Origin: Anseongella ginsenosidimutans
GTDB lineage: Bacteria > Bacteroidota > Bacteroidia > Sphingobacteriales > Sphingobacteriaceae
Assembly (NCBI GenBank): GCA_029268045.1
Contig: JAJUHF010000006.1
Span: 1-57,302 of the forward strand
Direction: 5' to 3'
Length of the DNA stretch: 57,302 nt
The notes under the pieces are model-generated. The model had not been told where the DNA came from and made no database searches. It worked only from the letters and a program-made list of their open reading frames with translations. A program made the position numbers and the translations under genes. Below are positions 7,496 through 16,110 of this stretch, one piece after another; position 1 is the first letter of the stretch, and each line of letters begins with the position of its first letter.

Positions 7496-8188
7496 TTATA
7501 CATGCAGTCCGCATTCCTTACGGGAGGCGTGTTCCCACCACCAGCGACCGGCACGGAAGTCTTCACCTTCCAAGACAGCGCGGGTACAGGGCTGGCAACC
7601 GATGCTTGGGAACCCTTTATCATGCAGGGGATTATAGGGAATATTGAAACGTCTGACGTATTCCTTGACTTCGTCCAGGGACCAACTGAATAAAGGGTGG
7701 AATTTCACCAGTTGATGGCCCGCATCCCACTCGGGGTTGTCCATGGTGGTCCGGTTGGCGGACTGTTCCGCCCGGATACCGGTGATCCAGCATTCCTGCC
7801 CTTTCAGGGCCCGGTTCAGTGGCTCCACTTTCCGGATCGCGCAGCATTCCTTCCGATTTTCCACCGATTCGTAAAAACTGTACGGCCCTTTTTCAGTCAT
7901 TAATTTCTCCACGGCTTCGGCCTGCGGGGAAAATACCTCAATCGGCTTTTTGTACCGGTCCAGGGTCCTGTTCCAGACGTGGTAGGTTTCGTTGAACATC
8001 CGGCCGGTATCCAGAGTAAACACCCGAATCGGCAGGTCATTCTTAAAGATCATATGCGTGATCACCTGATCTTCCCAGCCGAAACTGGTGGAGAATACGA
8101 TCTTACCTGGAAATTCCCCGGCAACTACCTCCAGCGCCTGTTCGGGAGTAAGACCTTCCACTTTGCTTGTCAGTCCTGATAAATCCAT
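7496..8188 (-). CDS. cysH: Assimilatory adenylyl-sulfate (APS) reductase
   Basis: A 230-residue PAPS/APS reductase family enzyme that reduces activated sulfate to sulfite. A P-loop-like STSFGWED (33-40) binds the nucleotide. Cysteine pairs C115-C116 (KECCAIRK) and C198-x2-C201 (GCQPC) are the [4Fe-4S] ligands that distinguish APS-type from PAPS-type enzymes, and C226 in the terminal KECGLH is the catalytic thiol. ATG 8188 is preceded by a palindromic site (8200-8221) resembling that in front of the sulfite reductase operon, suggesting co-regulation although cysH lies 81 bases downstream of the previous gene. Confidence 0.94.
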   Translation of the reverse strand: MDLSGLTSKVEGLTPEQALEVVAGEFPGKIVFSTSFGWEDQVITHMIFKNDLPIRVFTLDTGRMFNETYHVWNRTLDRYKKPIEVFSPQAEAVEKLMTEKGPYSFYESVENRKECCAIRKVEPLNRALKGQECWITGIRAEQSANRTTMDNPEWDAGHQLVKFHPLFSWSLDEVKEYVRRFNIPYNPLHDKGFPSIGCQPCTRAVLEGEDFRAGRWWWEHASRKECGLHV

Positions 8189-8269: not shown

Positions 8270-10123
8270 TCAATTAGGAACTTCCCGGGCCGAAACCGTG
8301 GACCGTTCCAACGCGCGGGTTATATCCGTGATAATATCTTCAACATCTTCCAGGCCTACCGAGATCCGGATACTTCCGTCCTCAATGGCAATGGCCCGGC
8401 GTTCTTCCGCCGTTAGTTTGGAATGCGTTGTGGAGGCGGGATGGGTCGCAATGGTCCGCGTATCACCCAGATTGGAAGTGAGCAGAATCATATCCAATGC
8501 ATCCAGGAACCTGCGCGCGCGGTCGTATCCTCCTTTTACCACGAAGGTGACGATTCCGCCTCCGGCCTTCATCTGTTTTTTGGCCAGTTCATATTGCGGA
8601 TGCGACGGCAGGAAGGGATACCGGACGTTTTCCACCTCGGGATGCGCTTCCAGCAGCCGGGCGATTTCCAGCGCGCTGCTGCAATGGCGGTCCATGCGGA
8701 CTCCCAGCGTTTCCAGGCTCTTGGAAACGGTCCAGGCGTTAAACGGAGACATGGCGGGACCCGTATTCCGGATAAAAAACATTAGCTGGTCCATCAGATC
8801 CCGCTGTCCGACCAGGATCCCTCCCAGGACACGGCCCTGGCCGTCCATATACTTCGTGGCCGAATGGCTCACGATGTGGGCACCGTATTGAATGGGCTTC
8901 TGCAGATACGGCGTGGCAAAACAATTGTCTACGTTCAATATCAGCTTATGTTTCGCGGCAAGCTGCCCTGCCCATTCGAGGTCTATCAACTCCAGACCCG
9001 GATTGGAGGGCGTTTCCAGAAAAATCATTTTGGTGTTTTCCCGGATGGCGCCTTCCCAGTCTTCGGGGCGGGATGCATCCACGTAGGTATGGGTAATGCC
9101 CCAGCGGGGAAACAGACGGGTAAACAATTGATGGGTGGATCCAAAAATTGACCGGCAGGAAACGATGTGATCCCCCGCGCTGAGCAAGCCAGCAATGGAG
9201 GCAAATACAGCCGCCATGCCGGATGAAAATGCCAGTCCGGCTTCAGCGCCTTCCAGTGCGCGCACTTTTTCAATGAATTCGGTGGTGTTCGGATTGGAAT
9301 AGCGGGAATAGATATTTCCACTCTCCTCTTCAGCAAAAAGCGCCCTGCCCTGTTCGGCGTTTTCAAAAATAAAGCTGGAAGTCAGATACAAAGGAACGGA
9401 ATGTTCCCGGTTAGCGGATCGATCGGCCTGAATGCGTACAAGTTTTGATTGGTCTTTCATTGTTTCGCGCGATTGGTTCAGGCTGCGAATATAATCTTCC
9501 TCTTTTTTAATTTCCACAGCGGGTTCGCCCCCGCTGGCAAGCACGGAAGTGATCTCATTGAGTTTCTGCACTTTGTAGGCGAAATCCCCATTCAATCTTT
9601 TTCGGATAACCTCCAGGTTGTCCAGCGACTGATTAATATTCTCGGGAATTGCCTCATGAAGCATTTCCTTTACTCTTTTGGCAATGGTGGGAGATTTTCC
9701 ATTGGTGGAAACAGCCAACTTCAGATGTCCTTTCTGGACAATGGATGAAAGATAGAAATCACAGAGATCCGGCGTATCGGCTACATTGGATAAAATGTTC
9801 CGGGCCGCCGCCATTTCCCGGATGCGCAGATTCAAATCCCGGCTGGCGGTGGCGATAATTACCAGGTCGTGCCCGTCCAGGTCGGATTCCTCAAAATCCT
9901 TTTCAAGCAACAGCACTTGCGGATGGGAAGCTGCCAGTTCCCGGATGTCGGCACTGATTTCACGCCCCACCAGGGTTACGGCTGCTTTCGGGCTGTTCGC
10001 CATCAGAGCGGTCAGTTTTTCCAGGCCTACTTTTCCGCCGCCCACCACCAGGGTGTTAAGACGTTCCAGTTTTAAAAAAACAGGAAACAACGCGTTTCTT
10101 CCGGTATCCACTGATTCGGACAT
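8270..10123 (-). CDS. Fusion: precorrin-2 dehydrogenase/sirohydrochlorin ferrochelatase + O-succinyl(acetyl)homoserine sulfhydrylase (MetZ)
   Basis: One uninterrupted 617-codon frame with two enzymes. Residues about 1-195 are a Met8/CysG-N siroheme synthase: NAD-binding VVGGGKVGLEK (26-36), NVADTPDLCDF (113-123) and AVSTNGKSPTIAKR (137-150). Residues about 222-617 are a Cys/Met-metabolism PLP enzyme beginning at MKDQSKLVR, where stand-alone MetZ proteins start: YSRYSNPNT (272-280), SSGMA (300-304), and the PLP lysine K424 in SATKYMDGQGR. The linker (196-221) is short and charged. It would make siroheme for the neighbouring sulfite reductase and then use the sulfide to form homocysteine. It starts 3 bases after cobA. 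Internal initiation at ATG 9460 could also yield free MetZ. Confidence 0.9.
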   Translation of the reverse strand: MSESVDTGRNALFPVFLKLERLNTLVVGGGKVGLEKLTALMANSPKAAVTLVGREISADIRELAASHPQVLLLEKDFEESDLDGHDLVIIATASRDLNLRIREMAAARNILSNVADTPDLCDFYLSSIVQKGHLKLAVSTNGKSPTIAKRVKEMLHEAIPENINQSLDNLEVIRKRLNGDFAYKVQKLNEITSVLASGGEPAVEIKKEEDYIRSLNQSRETMKDQSKLVRIQADRSANREHSVPLYLTSSFIFENAEQGRALFAEEESGNIYSRYSNPNTTEFIEKVRALEGAEAGLAFSSGMAAVFASIAGLLSAGDHIVSCRSIFGSTHQLFTRLFPRWGITHTYVDASRPEDWEGAIRENTKMIFLETPSNPGLELIDLEWAGQLAAKHKLILNVDNCFATPYLQKPIQYGAHIVSHSATKYMDGQGRVLGGILVGQRDLMDQLMFFIRNTGPAMSPFNAWTVSKSLETLGVRMDRHCSSALEIARLLEAHPEVENVRYPFLPSHPQYELAKKQMKAGGGIVTFVVKGGYDRARRFLDALDMILLTSNLGDTRTIATHPASTTHSKLTAEERRAIAIEDGSIRISVGLEDVEDIITDITRALERSTVSAREVPN

Positions 10124-10126
10124 TCC

Positions 10127-10903
10127 TTATAAGTTATTAATGTAATTGTACAATTCCCGAATCTTATGGAATTCGGGATGTTCCGCCACCACTTCCCCAA
10201 TGACGATCACCGCCGGATTGCCGATCTGCTTTTCAATCACCACTTCCTGGATCGTTTCGATGATTCCCACGGCAATCTTCTGGTCCGGCAGGCTGCCGTT
10301 CTGGATGATTGCTACGGGCCAGTCGCGTTTGCCGGCGTCTTTATACACCTTGACGATCTCATCCAGCTTCCGGGTCCCCATTAGGATGATCACCGTGGCG
10401 TTGGACTGGGCGGCAGTGAAGATATCGGCCGATAATTCCCCTTTCTTATTCGTACCGGTAATTACCCAGAAACTTTCACTAACTCCCCGGCTGGTGAGTG
10501 GGATCTTTTCCAGTTCGGGCACCGAAATGCTGCTGGAGATTCCCGGCACCACAGCCGTTTCGATGTTGTAGGATTCGGCGTGGTATATTTCTTCGTATCC
10601 CCTGCCGAAAACAAAGGGGTCTCCCCCTTTGAGCCGTACCACGTGACCATAGTGAAATGCAAAGTCTACAATCAGATCGTTGATCTGCCGTTGGGAATAG
10701 GCATGGTCTCCGGCCCGTTTCCCAACGAAAACCTTTTTTGCACCAGCCGGAGCAAAACGAAGAAGATCTTCACTGATCAACGCGTCGTAGAGCACCACGT
10801 CTGCCGTTGCCAGCGTTTTGATCCCTTTCAATGTGATAAGCTCCGGATCGCCGGGACCCGCCCCGATCAGGGTCAGTTTCGGCTGTTTCAATGTGCTGTT
10901 CAT
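10127..10903 (-). CDS. cobA: Uroporphyrinogen-III C-methyltransferase
   Basis: A 258-residue SUMT. ATG 10903 is chosen because it lies one base after the stop of the sulfite reductase gene; a longer frame would run into that gene. Family motifs are LIGAGPGDPELITLKG near the N-terminus, VRLKGGDPFVFGRG and VVPGISSSI. It methylates uroporphyrinogen III to precorrin-2, the substrate of the next gene's N-terminal domain, so together they supply siroheme. There is no cobalamin gene around, supporting the siroheme role. It carries no fused siroheme domain itself; that function sits on the downstream fusion. Confidence 0.93.
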   Translation of the reverse strand: MNSTLKQPKLTLIGAGPGDPELITLKGIKTLATADVVLYDALISEDLLRFAPAGAKKVFVGKRAGDHAYSQRQINDLIVDFAFHYGHVVRLKGGDPFVFGRGYEEIYHAESYNIETAVVPGISSSISVPELEKIPLTSRGVSESFWVITGTNKKGELSADIFTAAQSNATVIILMGTRKLDEIVKVYKDAGKRDWPVAIIQNGSLPDQKIAVGIIETIQEVVIEKQIGNPAVIVIGEVVAEHPEFHKIRELYNYINNL

Positions 10904-10904
10904 C

Positions 10905-13022
10905 TTACGGATTGGTTTCGGCCAACTCCTGGTCTTTTTCCCGGAAAGCAATTGCTTCCCGCAGAAAAGCAGCGGCTCCGGCGATGTATTCTACCGCGAA
11001 ACCTTCGTTCGGCTCGTTTTTATTGATGCGTGTTACGTGTTCCCGGAATCCGCCGGGGAACGTGAACCTACCGTCTGCTACGTATCGGGCATCGAATTCA
11101 TTCATTATCTTGATCTGGGTGCTCGGATTCACACCTTCATCGAGCAAAAGCGCTTTCGCTGTATTGATAAACAGGCCGTAGGCATGGTAAATGGCATCGG
11201 CGTAATTGCCTGCATCGAAATTCTCCTTTGCCATTTCCAGCTTTTCTTCCGAATCAACCAGCAGGGTGGCCACCAGATCAATTACTACGCTCGCGCATTC
11301 CCCCACACCGATGGCAACACCGTATTGTTCGTCCTGTCCCCAGTCAACAAAGTCCTCGGGCTTTAAGGTACTGGTATCGGCCAGGGGCTTAAGCAGTTCG
11401 TAAAAATATTCCTTACCCTGCCGGTCGTAGTAATCGTTGAAATACTCCCCGTCATGCGAATTGGCTTCGTAGTCCCGGAGTACAAAACGCAATACATCGG
11501 GCCCACGTTTGCTGGGCACCTTGATCACCCGCTCGGCCGTGCGGCCTACCCCGTCTCCCACAATGCCGCCGCCCAACAGCACCTGAAGCGCCGGATATAC
11601 CTTGCCGCCCGCTTTCGCTGAGCTTCCGTGGAATCCGATACTGGCAATGCCGTGCTGACCGCAGGAGTTCATGCACCCGCTTATCTTGATCTTGATATCG
11701 TTGTTGAAAATAAGTTCCGGGAATTCTTCGGTGATTACCCGTTCGAATACCCGGGTTACATTCATGCTGTCGGAGATACCCAGGTTACAGGTGTCGGTAC
11801 CCGGGCAGGTGGTCACATCCGCTACGCTGTCGAATCCGGGCTGAGCCAGTCCCAATTTGTCGAGTTCGGTGAACAGGTAGGGAAGCGCCTCGGGGCGGAC
11901 GAACTTTAGGATCAGTCCCTGGGTGGGGGCTACCCGGATGTCATCGGCCACATAATCCCGCACTGCGCTGACCATTTTCCGGGCGATGTCCGTGCTGATA
12001 TCCCCTGTCTGCACCTTGATGGTTACCTTATAGAATCCCTTCTGCTTCTGCTCGCTTACATTGGTCTTCAGCCAGTCCTCGTATTTCTTTGTATCGGCAA
12101 TGGTAACTTCCGGGATGGGCCGCGCTGCAGGCGGTTGGGTTTCAGGCAATATGTGCCGGTTAATGGGATAGCTTTTGGATTTGTTGGCCACACGCTCCTC
12201 TTCGATCAGCCGGACCACTTCTTCTATACCCAGGTTCGCGATCAGGTATTTCATCCGGGCCTTGTTCCGGTTATTCCGCTCTCCGTACCGATCAAACACA
12301 CGGATCACCGATTCGATGTACGGAATCACCTGATCTTCCGGCAGGAACTCATGCACCAGCTTGGAGGTCATGGGCTGCGCGCCCAGGCCACCGCCGATTA
12401 CGACTTTGAAACCGCGGACTTCCTGACCATTCTCCTGGCGGACCTTGGGAATCAGACCCACGTCGTGGATAAAACTCCAGGCCGTATCTGCTTCGCTCGA
12501 GGAAAAAGCGATCTTGAACTTCCGACCCATATCCTGGCATATCGGATTCCGAAGGAAATAACGGAAAGTTTCGTAAGCATAGGGTGAAACGTCAAACGGC
12601 TCGTCGGGGTCAATACCCGCAATAGGCGAAGCGGTGACGTTTCTCACCGTGTTTCCGCAGGCTTCCCGGATGGTGACCTCGTCTTTATCGAGCTTGGCCC
12701 ACAGCTCCGGGGTTCTGTCCAGGCTTACAAAATGGATCTGAATATCCTGACGTGTGGTCAGATGAAGGTTGCCGGTTGCATACTCATCCGACACATCGGC
12801 AATGGCGAGCAGCTTCTGAAAGGTAAGAAAGCCGAAAGGGATCTTGATTCGAACCATTTGAACACCTTTCTGACGCTGGCCGTAGATGCCCCTGGCAAGC
12901 CGTAGGCTACGAAATTTTGTTTCCGGAATACTGCCTTCGTGGAACCTCCTGATCTTTTCCGCCAGCTCAATAACCTCTCGTTCAACCACCGGATTCTCCA
13001 ATTCAGACCTGAAGCTTTGCAT
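10905..13022 (-). CDS. Assimilatory siroheme sulfite reductase with C-terminal HEPN-like domain
   Basis: A 705-residue haemoprotein. Two ferredoxin-like plus siroheme-binding half-repeats span about 1-560; the [4Fe-4S]/siroheme cysteines are C406 and C412 (TCPGTDTC) and C450 and C454 (GCMNSC). The substrate-site segments TTRQDIQIHF (89-98) and NTVRNVT (124-130) are typical of the nitrite/sulfite reductase superfamily. From about 590 to 695 there is an extra helical domain (KLEMAKENFDAGNYADAIYH and following) that looks HEPN-like and is absent from classical CysI. Siroheme and MetZ genes downstream point to sulfite rather than nitrite as substrate. A leader ORF and a terminator-like hairpin lie immediately upstream. 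Confidence 0.9.
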   Translation of the reverse strand: MQSFRSELENPVVEREVIELAEKIRRFHEGSIPETKFRSLRLARGIYGQRQKGVQMVRIKIPFGFLTFQKLLAIADVSDEYATGNLHLTTRQDIQIHFVSLDRTPELWAKLDKDEVTIREACGNTVRNVTASPIAGIDPDEPFDVSPYAYETFRYFLRNPICQDMGRKFKIAFSSSEADTAWSFIHDVGLIPKVRQENGQEVRGFKVVIGGGLGAQPMTSKLVHEFLPEDQVIPYIESVIRVFDRYGERNNRNKARMKYLIANLGIEEVVRLIEEERVANKSKSYPINRHILPETQPPAARPIPEVTIADTKKYEDWLKTNVSEQKQKGFYKVTIKVQTGDISTDIARKMVSAVRDYVADDIRVAPTQGLILKFVRPEALPYLFTELDKLGLAQPGFDSVADVTTCPGTDTCNLGISDSMNVTRVFERVITEEFPELIFNNDIKIKISGCMNSCGQHGIASIGFHGSSAKAGGKVYPALQVLLGGGIVGDGVGRTAERVIKVPSKRGPDVLRFVLRDYEANSHDGEYFNDYYDRQGKEYFYELLKPLADTSTLKPEDFVDWGQDEQYGVAIGVGECASVVIDLVATLLVDSEEKLEMAKENFDAGNYADAIYHAYGLFINTAKALLLDEGVNPSTQIKIMNEFDARYVADGRFTFPGGFREHVTRINKNEPNEGFAVEYIAGAAAFLREAIAFREKDQELAETNP

Positions 13023-13042
13023 AATACCTTGCTGTTTTGATT

Positions 13043-13080
13043 AAAAAAAAAGCCCTTTCAACTTTTTCGGTGGAAAGGGC
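13043..13080 (-). terminator. Intrinsic terminator (attenuator candidate) before sulfite reductase
   Basis: On the minus strand a perfect 8-bp stem, GCCCTTTC (13080-13073) with GAAAGGGC (13059-13052), closes a 13-base loop and is followed by nine Ts (13051-13043). It sits inside the 5' leader only 20 bases before the sulfite reductase ATG (13022) and downstream of the 28-codon leader ORF. The upstream segment GGAAAAGAAGG (13124-13114) can pair with CCCTTTCC (13079-13072) and would destroy the stem. It could instead be the terminator of the Rrf2 gene, but that gene ends 210 bases earlier and a promoter-like element lies between. Confidence 0.8.
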
Positions 13081-13101
13081 CTGGATATTTCTTTATCTGA
13101 T

Positions 13102-13188
13102 TTATGACACAGTCCTTCTTTTCCGCCGTCTTGCGAAGCCCATCATACAACAATCACACATCCGGAAAGCGCTAAAAGAATGATTCAT
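13102..13188 (-). CDS. Cys/Met-rich leader peptide of the sulfite reductase operon
   Basis: A 28-codon frame, ATG 13188 to TAA 13102, lying about 20 bases after the predicted transcription start and directly before the terminator hairpin. Residues 10-16 read M-C-D-C-C-M-M: three Cys and three Met in seven codons, the end products of the pathway encoded downstream. The tail is strongly basic (ARRRKRR). Segment CTTTCCG (13169-13163), just before the Cys codons, can pair with CGGAAAAG (13125-13118), which can alternatively pair with the terminator's 5' arm. This is the 1:2 / 2:3 / 3:4 layout of a ribosome-mediated attenuator. Translation is inferred, not shown. Confidence 0.7.
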   Translation of the reverse strand: MNHSFSAFRMCDCCMMGFARRRKRRTVS

Positions 13189-13212
13189 TATTTCTTTCTT
13201 TCTTATAAGATG

Positions 13213-13220
13213 CAAATATA
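13213..13220 (-). promoter_or_regulatory. -7 promoter element of the sulfite reductase operon
   Basis: TATATTTG on the minus strand (13220 to 13213) matches TAnnTTTG. Transcription would start near 13206, giving a leader of about 185 bases. The palindromic site at 13223-13244 sits where the -33 to -7 spacer should be, so a bound regulator would block polymerase. No clear TTG -33 box is visible. Confidence 0.55.
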
Positions 13221-13222
13221 TA

Positions 13223-13244
13223 TATAATCTCTATGGAAATTATA
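13223..13244. promoter_or_regulatory. Palindromic operator candidate of the sulfite reductase operon
   Basis: A 22-base near-perfect inverted repeat centred at 13233/13234. Its halves TATAATCTCTA and TGGAAATTATA are complementary at nine of eleven positions; the two exceptions are C/A-type mismatches. The same site type recurs before cysH (8200-8221). It touches the -7 element and lies 46 bases from the end of the adjacent Rrf2 regulator gene, the likely binder by inference. Confidence 0.65.
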
Positions 13245-13289: not shown

Positions 13290-13739
13290 TCAGGTGGTTA
13301 TTTTTAAACTATCAATTAGCTCATTTTCCCGGTCCACGATATCGGCAATGCTTGTTTCGCTCAGGATCTTCAATGCCGCATCCCGCACATCGATGAATAC
13401 GTTCCGTATCCCGCAGGTCACTTCGTCCCGGCATTCCTCACACCGTTCGTAGAAGTTCAGACTCACACAGGGAAGCAAGGCAATGGGGCCGTCGGTCACC
13501 CGCAGGATCTGCACCAGTTTCACCTCCGCGGGATCCTTCGCCATGTAGTATCCTCCCCCCGCTCCTTTTTTACTGTGCAATACCCCCGCATTCCGAAGCT
13601 CCAACAGGATCAGTTCAAGAAACTTTTTGGGTATCCGCTCGTCCTCTGCCAGCTTTGAGATCAATACCGGCACGCCCTTCTCACTCTTAGCCAAAGCCAC
13701 CAATGCCTTGATCGCGTATTTCGTCTTTTTAGATAACAT
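13290..13739 (-). CDS. Rrf2-family transcriptional regulator
   Basis: A 149-residue winged-helix regulator that opens with the Rrf2 signature (MLSKKTKYAIKALVALA) and carries the KKGAGGGYYMAK wing. Four cysteines, in LPCVSL, ERCEEC and VTCGIR, occupy the region where IscR/NsrR-type members bind an Fe-S cluster. Rrf2 relatives such as CymR control sulfur assimilation in other phyla. Position directly upstream of the sulfite reductase operon and the shared palindromes suggest it is the local sulfur regulator, sensing Fe-S or thiol status. Not tested; a general redox role is possible. Confidence 0.88.
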   Translation of the reverse strand: MLSKKTKYAIKALVALAKSEKGVPVLISKLAEDERIPKKFLELILLELRNAGVLHSKKGAGGGYYMAKDPAEVKLVQILRVTDGPIALLPCVSLNFYERCEECRDEVTCGIRNVFIDVRDAALKILSETSIADIVDRENELIDSLKITT

Positions 13740-13868: not shown

Positions 13869-13939
13869 TGCCCGATAGTATAATGGTAGTACGTCAGATT
13901 CTGGTTCTGATTGTCTAGGTTCGAATCCTGGTCGGGCAA
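13869..13939 (+). tRNA. tRNA-Gln (anticodon CUG)
   Basis: The acceptor stem TGCCCGA pairs with TCGGGCA (7 bp). The anticodon arm is TCAGA-TTCTGGT-TCTGA with CTG at the anticodon position, and the T arm contains GGTTCGAATCC. The discriminator is A at 13939; CCA is not encoded. Glutamine follows from reading CAG codons. Confidence 0.95.
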
Positions 13940-14019: not shown

Positions 14020-16110
14020 TTAATAGCCCGGATTCTGATTCACAAGCGGATAGCTGTCAATCACGTATTGCGGAATGGGAAGCAAACCGTGGAATGGCAG
14101 GTATCCTTTGGGAGCCAGCACATCCATGGCCTGATCCCACCGCACCAGGTTCAAAAACCGGGACCCTTCCCGGGGCATTTCACTTTTCCACAAGCTCCAC
14201 AGCCGGGCACGCAGTTCCTCCAGTGAGCCGTTTTGTGGAGGCGGGGCAGTTCCCTTGCGGTTGTTCAGCAAGGCCAGGATTTCCCATGCGTCGGTGTAGG
14301 CCCCCTCATTGATCAGGGCTTCTGCACGCATCAGGTAAATTTCGGTTATCCGCAGGTATGGGAAACGCGCGCGGCCAAAGAAAAACTCCTGGAATCCACC
14401 GGTGATCTCCTGCCGGGGATGCCAGATGAATTCTTTGCTGTCCGCTTCAAAAATTGCGGTACCTGTCTCCAGCTGATATTGCGCGCCTTGAATGATGTCA
14501 CCTGTAATCTGCGCCACCAGGGCGTGATTTTTCTTCGCTAGGGCTACTTTCGCTTGCAGGGCTTTCACCGCGCCGGCGGTTAAGCGGGCAGGATCCCCCT
14601 GGGCGGGTACGCGCGATAAGGCTGCATCCAAATCAGCGGAAATGAAGTTCAGCAGACTCTCCCGATCGGCGCCGAAATCGTAATTTCCTTCTTCCGACAC
14701 GATTCCATCGGCGTAAGGGACTTCTCCGAAATAATTCACCAGAACAAGGTAAACGAAAGCTCGAAGACCTTTTGCCTGGCCTAGAAGCGCCTGGTCATTC
14801 AGACTTCCGTTCTCAATTTCCCAAATGATCCGGTTCAGCCGGTAAATGGGCTCGAATCCATTGCGCCAGACATTGGCAAAGGCCGGATGGGTGGTTGAAA
14901 AGGAAAAATCATCGACTCCCTGAAACTGGGAACCGAACATAGCCGGAAGCTGCTCGGCGTCGTCACTCAGGAGGGCATCCAGCATCACCACATTCAATTG
15001 GTACCAGTTGCCGATCATGCCGGATACCTGATCAAGCAGGTCCTGCGCAACGGCCTGATCCAGCGGACCGTAAGCGGCGTTATTGATGTAGCCAATGTAA
15101 ACGTTCAGCTCCAAAGCCGATCCGTCGCTGACCTCTGCCGACTCATACGGTACAGGTAAACGGTCCATCCCATTGATCTGGCCGTCGGCATTTACGTCCA
15201 CAAAGCGAAAATTGCCAGGCAGCTGTCCCGCCGGAGTTTCGTTTTCCGACGCGTAAATGCCTTCGATGGCCAGCCCGGTGTAAACCCCGTCCTCGGTTAC
15301 TTTCGACTTCAGAATGATGTTGCTTTTGTGATCCAGCTGCGCGTGCACATAATAGGTACCCGGCTCGATCTCATCAAAGACCGCGTTGCCGTCTTCCCCT
15401 GCCTGGGCCACATAGGCTGGGTTGGCCGCCGCAAAATCCTCCCGGGATTTGTAAAGCGCCACTTCAGCGCCTTCCGCCGGTACGCCGTCGGGCTGCGAGG
15501 GAGTCCATCCGCCCGCGTCCCAAACCACAACCGTCAGGCTGGTAATTTCCGGCCCGGGTTCGGGTTCGTCATTGGGCTCGGTACCGGTCAGACTCCGCTT
15601 GACCACAAAAACAGTATGCCCGCCTTCGGTCACGATCCCCTCTCCGCTCAGCTCCACGCCGTTCAGCCAGACCCGATTTTCTGTCCGCTTTACTTTCAGT
15701 TGTTTTCCGCTAAGGGTCGTGAGGATTTTTCCATCGGTCAGATCGGCCACCGTATAAACGCCTTTGACCACGTGGTCCTTCAGCACGGGGGATTCGCCGG
15801 CTTTCAAGGGAACGCCTGCGGATTTTGTCACCGGTCGCCCCGTTTGCGGAGCCGAAGCCTGCGCCTCCGTTTCGTTCAGCGGTGCGAATACGGTGATCCC
15901 TTCGGAAACTTCAGCCGCGGAAAGCTGAAGATTTTCCAGCGCCGCGACAAAGTTGCTGATGCTATCGGCCGACGCCAGCTTTCCGGTCAATTCGGAAATA
16001 ACTTGCTCCGGAACCGGCTTTTCCTCTTCGTTTTCAAGTCCCGGGGTATCCTTTTTACAGGAAGTCGCCACACAGGATGCCATAAGAATTAACGTAAAAA
16101 ATAATCTCAT
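14020..16110 (-). CDS. Multidomain lipoprotein: fasciclin-like + EF-hand/dockerin-like + SusD/RagB-like
   Basis: A 696-residue protein with a lipoprotein signal; the lipid Cys is probably C18 in VATSCKKD (C13 in LMASC is an alternative). Residues about 32-175 resemble a fasciclin domain: VFAPLNET, DHVVKGVY, a TLSGKQLKV strand and GGHTVFVVKRSL. About 190-290 looks like a carboxypeptidase-regulatory/CNA-type beta domain (GTYYVHAQL). FVDVNADGQINGMD (303-316) is a calcium-loop or dockerin-like motif. From about 340 to the end it resembles SusD/RagB with helical repeats, YFGEVPYAD, LRITEIYLMRAEALI and the terminal LLPIPQ. No SusC partner lies nearby. It is probably surface-exposed; the ligand is unknown. 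Confidence 0.78.
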   Translation of the reverse strand: MRLFFTLILMASCVATSCKKDTPGLENEEEKPVPEQVISELTGKLASADSISNFVAALENLQLSAAEVSEGITVFAPLNETEAQASAPQTGRPVTKSAGVPLKAGESPVLKDHVVKGVYTVADLTDGKILTTLSGKQLKVKRTENRVWLNGVELSGEGIVTEGGHTVFVVKRSLTGTEPNDEPEPGPEITSLTVVVWDAGGWTPSQPDGVPAEGAEVALYKSREDFAAANPAYVAQAGEDGNAVFDEIEPGTYYVHAQLDHKSNIILKSKVTEDGVYTGLAIEGIYASENETPAGQLPGNFRFVDVNADGQINGMDRLPVPYESAEVSDGSALELNVYIGYINNAAYGPLDQAVAQDLLDQVSGMIGNWYQLNVVMLDALLSDDAEQLPAMFGSQFQGVDDFSFSTTHPAFANVWRNGFEPIYRLNRIIWEIENGSLNDQALLGQAKGLRAFVYLVLVNYFGEVPYADGIVSEEGNYDFGADRESLLNFISADLDAALSRVPAQGDPARLTAGAVKALQAKVALAKKNHALVAQITGDIIQGAQYQLETGTAIFEADSKEFIWHPRQEITGGFQEFFFGRARFPYLRITEIYLMRAEALINEGAYTDAWEILALLNNRKGTAPPPQNGSLEELRARLWSLWKSEMPREGSRFLNLVRWDQAMDVLAPKGYLPFHGLLPIPQYVIDSYPLVNQNPGY

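Follow-up and report, generated by a model that had tools for sequence, protein, structure and literature searches.

To our knowledge, little is known of how Bacteroidota regulate sulfate assimilation and the supply of cysteine and methionine. The DNA analysed here (the window, 57,302 nt of Anseongella ginsenosidimutans) carries a short ORF with clustered Cys and Met codons just upstream of a sulfite reductase (SiR) gene, which raises the question of whether this ORF controls the gene as a leader peptide. A first-pass annotation had proposed a Cys/Met leader-peptide attenuator at this position; the proposal was supported by recurrence of the arrangement, by a promoter box upstream of it and by base pairing at the level of the class, the response to cysteine supply being inferred. 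We regard it as highly likely that the leader RNA, approximately 170 nt from the predicted transcription start at 13208 to the terminator end, acts as a ribosome-mediated transcription attenuator in which the charging of tRNA-Cys and tRNA-Met is read.

Leader, promoter and operon of the SiR locus

The leader ORF (13188-13102, minus strand) consists of 28 codons followed by TAA and encodes MNHSFSAFRMCDCCMMGFARRRKRRTVS. Its codons 10-16 (13141-13161, minus strand) read ATG TGT GAT TGT TGT ATG ATG, giving M-C-D-C-C-M-M, and are the putative regulatory codons. Direct reading of the sequence found both the ORF and this cluster exactly as first described. The last Cys of C-D-C-C stands 14 codons before the stop, compared with 0-8 codons in most relatives. 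A terminator had also been claimed ahead of the SiR start codon, and one was found there: a hairpin, GGCCCTTTCCACCGAAAAAGTTGAAAGGGC, comprising segments 3 and 4 (13052-13081, minus strand; folding energy -14.0 kcal/mol), with a T-run directly 3′ of it that was read from the sequence (13042-13051, minus strand), the SiR ATG lying at 13022. The hairpin did not appear in a simple terminator scan, an interrupted stem being the probable reason. Searching the leader against Rfam gave no riboswitch, T-box or SAM-I match at gathering score; the best score (E = 0.63, to c-di-GMP-I) was below threshold and fell mostly inside the SiR gene. A riboswitch was therefore set aside as the identity of the window leader.

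The SiR gene (10905-13022, minus strand; Pfam PF01077/PF03460) is the first of its operon. It is followed on the minus strand by a uroporphyrinogen-III C-methyltransferase-type gene for siroheme (10127-10951; PF00590), by a single ORF (8270-10123) in which a siroheme dehydrogenase-type domain (PF13241; PF13241/PF14824) is fused to a Cys/Met-metabolism PLP enzyme of the sulfhydrylase type (PF01053), and, further downstream in the same run, by a PAPS/APS reductase (CysH-type) gene (7496-8188; PF01507, E = 7.8e-47). The domain fusion in ORF 8270-10123 ties siroheme to sulfur amino-acid synthesis. No leader of the SiR type was found at PAPS-reductase loci (cysH/cysD) outside the SiR operon.

Only one TAnnTTTG motif, the Bacteroidota sigma-A -7 box TATATTTG (13213-13220, minus strand), was found in the 300 nt upstream of SiR, and there was no second one between the start of the leader ORF and SiR. 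In Flavobacterium this box lies at -12 to -5 relative to start sites (PMC9723704). Applying that spacing to the box at 13220-13213 predicts a transcription start at 13208, a 5′ UTR of 20 nt and a distance of 32 nt from box to AUG. A start downstream of 13188 is not indicated, the only promoter box being upstream of the ORF.

Recurrence of the leader in Bacteroidia

Two collections of loci were compared: set 1, with 107 SiR upstream regions, and set 2, with 30 from other families, drawn separately from the class. The unit counted was a Cys-cluster ORF with a terminator no more than 60 nt past its stop. This arrangement was observed in 40/107 regions of set 1 and 17/30 of set 2 (57/137 in total), compared with 3/107 and 0/30 on the antisense strand and 0 and about 0.1 in dinucleotide shuffles. 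Cys clusters alone were present in 55/107 regions of set 1, versus 21 in antisense and 16.8 ± 3.4 in shuffled sequence. Among the 47 curated leaders, 124 Cys codons were observed against 30 expected from shuffled codons (4.1-fold), and 94 internal Met codons against 21 (4.5-fold), initiator codons being excluded; the enrichment was replicated in the 16 leaders of set 2 (Cys 68 against 15, Met 53 against 9.7). A Met codon stood within 3 codons of a Cys in 43/47 leaders. Since the leaders were picked mainly by their Cys codons, the Cys enrichment is partly built in; this selection builds in neither the Met enrichment, which is the cleaner signal, nor the association with terminators. The loci are related and so not independent, which was addressed in part by set 2 and by a thinned subset of 25. 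To the Cys codons, originally named as the putative sites of stalling, one correction applies: Met codons are enriched as strongly.

At least one leader was found in each of families f1, f10, f13, f16, f19, f24, f27, f54, f61, f66, f69, f72, f73 and f74, with the caveats of partial N-masking in f24 and an uncertain SiR start in f27. The leader of the sister species, the sole other genome of the genus compared, is MIHSFNTFGMCNCCMKEFVKRRKRMTIS. It differs from that of the window at 11 of 28 residues; M10, C11, C13, C14 and M15 are unchanged and M16 is changed, and alignment showed that the terminator stem is retained with three loop bases deleted. Leaders were also present in Mucilaginibacter (e.g. 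L087 MKTNFTHKTTLMYCCMRSDRPWL, L137 MIITYIYMQTMCCCWQNTYYGL and L109 MKATNIFTTCCICICCCNTAT), Pedobacter (L085 MNFNFIPKQLTAKQIMCCCCKTQ and L086 MNQTVYNGNLMLTHCMCG), Parapedobacter (L068, L092), Chitinophaga (L076, L078, L080, L094, L106, L128), Rhodocytophaga (L114) and Cyclobacteriaceae/Fulvivirgaceae genomes (L083, L139), and in other families of the separate draw, such as L289 MKTNWTFNGIKATCCTMCCTCCAL, L305 MKFTNNQNLNSYMMCMMMCCCMRSDAGGYLAE and L309 MKNTSKQNFSFHMCMCMCMCCCMRGDSGDLYSS. The expectation that the ORF and its Cys codons would be conserved upstream of SiR in relatives was therefore borne out across many families. Recurrence of ORF plus terminator in about a dozen families suggests that the arrangement is very probably a switch that turns on sulfur assimilation when cysteine or methionine is short.

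The leader was absent from Sphingobacterium, Flavobacteriaceae and several other families examined; in Flavobacteriaceae no Cys leader was found in the SiR operons or about 7 kb upstream. In two Mucilaginibacter MAGs (L067, L062) the terminator is retained but the ORF either no longer has Cys codons (MKKEDITYYKIYIYGLMQSDRS) or is missing altogether, and these may be decaying attenuators or assembly errors. Three Pontibacter loci (L061, L063, L089) have poly-Cys ORFs upstream of SiR, ending in GRACCYPC, YTCCC and MRCCSAYACC, without a clear intrinsic terminator, possibly reflecting another mode of control. A loose pattern of promoter plus CC, run over 301 genomes, was too unspecific and was excluded from the counts. 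With the stricter CCM and M-C-x-C-C patterns, only metY leaders matched beyond the SiR leaders. In the host genome, where further leaders were sought by pattern only, none was seen besides that of SiR.

The codon clusters could also be read as a peptide signal, in which the ribosome is arrested by the Cys/Met peptide itself on binding a metal, heme or a reactive sulfur species, and tRNA charging plays no part. Adjoining Cys and Met residues are classical soft-metal ligands, and clusters such as CCMM, CMCMCMCCC and CCYMCM do recur. Against this, how many Cys and Met there are, and in what order and spacing, varies freely (CC, CxC, CCM, HCMC, CCCCC, MMYCHM), no fixed peptide motif is retained across families, and the downstream gene is always SiR (by choice of loci), or metY in a second class. 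Variable order without a fixed motif indicates that codon content, not a motif, is conserved, and we consider a nascent-peptide or metal/thiol sensor improbable. A copper- or thiol-binding small protein was set aside on the same lack of a fixed motif.

Antiterminator pairing and mode of control

Under the attenuator, a ribosome would translate the 28-codon ORF behind RNA polymerase. When cysteine and methionine are plentiful it would reach the stop codon and cover or disrupt segment 2 near the stop; with segment 2 masked, the hairpin at 13081-13052 would form and transcription would end before SiR. When either amino acid is short, the ribosome would stall at codons 10-16 and leave segment 2 free to capture the terminator 5′ arm ahead of synthesis of the 3′ arm; the resulting read-through would allow transcription of the SiR - siroheme - sulfhydrylase - CysH operon. 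The ORF, terminator and promoter box of this scheme are observed in the window; translation of the ORF, stalling, the direction of the response and the working of the window's own weak antiterminator are inferred, there being no expression data.

Support for the pairing came from the class as a whole. Across loci, complementarity to the terminator 5′ arm peaked in the interval from -2 to +16 relative to the end of the leader stop codon and dropped across the preceding 70 nt. Cognate segments paired with their arms better than swapped (non-cognate) ones (Wilcoxon p = 8e-6). Sequestration of the 5′ arm was modelled with a ribosome halted at the first Cys of the cluster, by folding the RNA on its 3′ side up to, but not including, the terminator 3′ arm. 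The mean probability of sequestration was 0.72, compared with 0.49 when the upstream sequence was shuffled and 0.65 when it was non-cognate; in set 2 it was 0.81 versus 0.51 for shuffled, with 16/16 loci above their own shuffles. With the ribosome at the stop it fell to about 0.2, a drop partly due to fewer free bases. Segment 1 was marked only by a weak excess of pairing (-0.87 ± 0.30 kcal/mol) in the region 12-28 nt ahead of the first Cys codon, and a protective segment 1 is weakly supported. As modelled by these folds, the class has the geometry of ribosome-mediated attenuation in which the mask is a ribosome at the stop codon.

Structurally, the window itself illustrates the class poorly. 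All four elements of the three-way pairing first proposed were correctly placed (CTTTCCG at 13169-13163, CGGAAAAG at 13125-13118, GGAAAAGAAGG at 13124-13114 and CCCTTTCC at 13079-13072). Stems between CTTTCCG and CGGAAAAG do exist, but are no better than shuffles (p = 0.20), and the lowest-energy helix is instead formed by CATTCTTTT (13182-13174) and AAAAGAAGG (13122-13114). The former (13174-13182, minus strand) is our candidate segment 1, which pairs with 13122-13114 in the minimum-energy fold of ribosome-free RNA. The candidate segment 2, the 5′ strand of the putative antiterminator, is the purine-rich CGGCGGAAAAGAAGG (13114-13128, minus strand), in which CGG (13128-13126) could pair with 13070-13068 and GGAAA (13124-13120) with 13076-13072. 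The claimed pairing of segments 2 and 3 is thus possible in the window and has support from the class, but its own signal is weak: the duplex of segment 2 with the terminator arm has an energy of -13.6 kcal/mol, with p = 0.05 that becomes p = 0.20 by mononucleotide shuffle. In both the window and the sister species the antiterminator was no better than shuffled sequence and, whatever the ribosome state, thermodynamics favoured the finished terminator. The total folding energy of the leader in the window was not unusual (z = -0.72). It had further been supposed that a ribosome at the stop covers segment 2; as that segment lies mostly 5′ of the stop, only part of it would be covered. In the fold of RNA truncated by a ribosome at codon 14, CGG/GGAA(A) (13128-13120) pairs with UUUCC/CCG (13076-13068), and the fold of naked RNA contains the helix 13182-13174:13122-13114 plus the terminator. 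Taken together, these folds leave the three-segment scheme possible but unproven in the window.

The same results bear on the mode of control put forward for Actinobacteria, translational coupling or Rho-type attenuation, under which SiR would depend on translation of the leader and the hairpin would be incidental. The Pontibacter and metY leaders, poly-Cys ORFs without a clear terminator, would suit such control; at SiR, a strong hairpin and T-run stand directly 3′ of the ORF in the window and in 57/137 upstream regions, and the complementary segment tracks the leader stop codon, so that this explanation has little to recommend it over the attenuator.

Immediately upstream of the leader and co-directional with it is a gene for an Rrf2-family transcription regulator (13290-13739, minus strand; PF02082, E = 4.9e-35). 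Its product is a candidate regulator of the SiR operon at the promoter level, probably acting in addition to the attenuator. A 28-nt block over the promoter, TTCCATAGAGATTATATATATATTTGCA (13211-13238, minus strand), is identical in the aligned sister species and is possibly, by inference from its sequence, an Rrf2 operator. TACTAATTCTATA elements similar to this block were seen at other SiR promoters. A TACTAATTCTATAG-like element adjoining the Rrf2 gene, a candidate Rrf2 operator, occurs at SiR promoters with and without leader (window 13211-13238; L014-L030). A similar gene (MLSKKTKYG...) is also found upstream of flavobacterial SiR operons. Control solely by Rrf2 at the promoter, with an incidental ORF and an ordinary terminator or spacer, draws on the adjacent Rrf2 gene and on operator-like TACTAATTCTATAG elements upstream of SiR even without a leader, but is hardly credible given that the Cys/Met ORF and terminator are associated far above antisense and shuffle controls and that a constitutive terminator between promoter and gene makes little sense without a switch. 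The constitutive terminator was considered and set aside. A tRNA gene (13869-13939, plus strand; Rfam RF00005) lies in the gap that separates the Rrf2 gene from its neighbour at 14020-16110.

Known systems and variant leaders

The attenuator shares with the classical trp, his and ilv-type attenuators its regulatory codons, leader ORF, biosynthetic operon and mutually exclusive antiterminator and terminator, the exclusivity being supported at class level and not above shuffles in the window. It differs from them in its combined Cys and Met codons, its occurrence in Bacteroidota, its weak protector segment 1 and the ribosome at the stop codon as apparently the main mask. In Actinobacteria, Cys leaders without conserved terminators and with Cys near the stop have been predicted (PMC1262725); unlike these, the Bacteroidota leaders have an intrinsic terminator and a stop-proximal antiterminator, are equally enriched in Met and may occur in tandem. 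Polycysteine leaderless short ORFs attenuate operons in mycobacteria (Canestrari et al. 2020, as reported in PMC9031893 and PMC9094748). To the extent that those sources describe them, the mycobacterial and actinobacterial ORFs resemble the present leaders in being short and upstream, with clustered Cys codons and an expected response to cysteine supply, and 20/47 Bacteroidota relatives are likewise predicted to be leaderless. The window leader is unlike the mycobacterial ones in that it is not leaderless (predicted 5′ UTR of 20 nt), its Cys run is not near the stop and a terminator is present. Like the SAM-I riboswitch (S-box, RF00162), which precedes metY in the same family, it is a 5′ leader that would control sulfur genes; unlike SAM-I, it has no SAM-I or other Rfam match.

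Within the phylum, leader-peptide attenuation has been suggested for amino-acid operons of Flavobacterium psychrophilum from structured 5′ regions (PMC9723704), a case similar in phylum and in the placing of leader peptides before amino-acid operons. It differs in that the main text of that paper names no Cys/Met or sulfur case and the flavobacterial SiR loci examined are without leader. The main text of a survey of premature terminators (PMC2965389) holds no Bacteroidota case, and no description of Cys/Met sulfur leader attenuation in Bacteroidota was found in open-access text, subscription journals and bioRxiv being outside the scope. The original claim of novelty for the phylum must therefore be narrowed: leader-peptide attenuation as such had already been suggested in a flavobacterium, and only the Cys/Met sulfur case looks new. 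With it, Bacteroidota join the phyla in which there is evidence of leader-peptide attenuation responding to amino acids; it suggests convergence with the mycobacterial poly-Cys ORFs and offers a candidate RNA switch in many soil and plant-associated species that can be cultured.

On balance we lean towards a broader reading, that Bacteroidia have an unreported, class-wide set of terminator-coupled leader peptides integrating Cys and Met tRNA charging for SiR, leaderless in many Sphingobacteriaceae, tandem in several families and, at metY, combined as SAM-I plus poly-Cys into a composite sensing SAM and cysteine. The Cys and Met codons, tandem copies and metY composite raise the question of whether one leader alone works out the cell's sulfur amino-acid status.

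The -7 box starts exactly 12 nt before the AUG in 20/47 leaders, and from this spacing these are predicted to be leaderless. Leaderless messages make up 5.5% in F. psychrophilum (PMC9723704), and about 3.7% of 5′ UTRs in B. thetaiotaomicron are shorter than 10 nt. Two complete units of ORF and terminator stand in tandem before SiR in families f10, f16, f19 and f72, and probably in f54; tandem Cys/Met leaders upstream of a single SiR gene were seen at L199, L200, L299, L300, L317, L291 and L303.

The metY genes of the genus itself (L284, L285) have neither SAM riboswitch nor leader. In other Sphingobacteriaceae, three elements come in the order SAM-I riboswitch, an ORF of about 30-43 codons with a terminal poly-Cys run at or beside its stop, and the gene for O-acetylhomoserine sulfhydrylase (L261, L262, L263, L264, L265, L266, L270, L272, L273, L274, L277 and L282; RF00162 matches in six). 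This leader is possibly a composite regulator responding to SAM plus cysteine. No clear T-run terminator accompanies these ORFs, whose endings include GCICMCCCC, VVCCMCCCCC and SLCCCCC.
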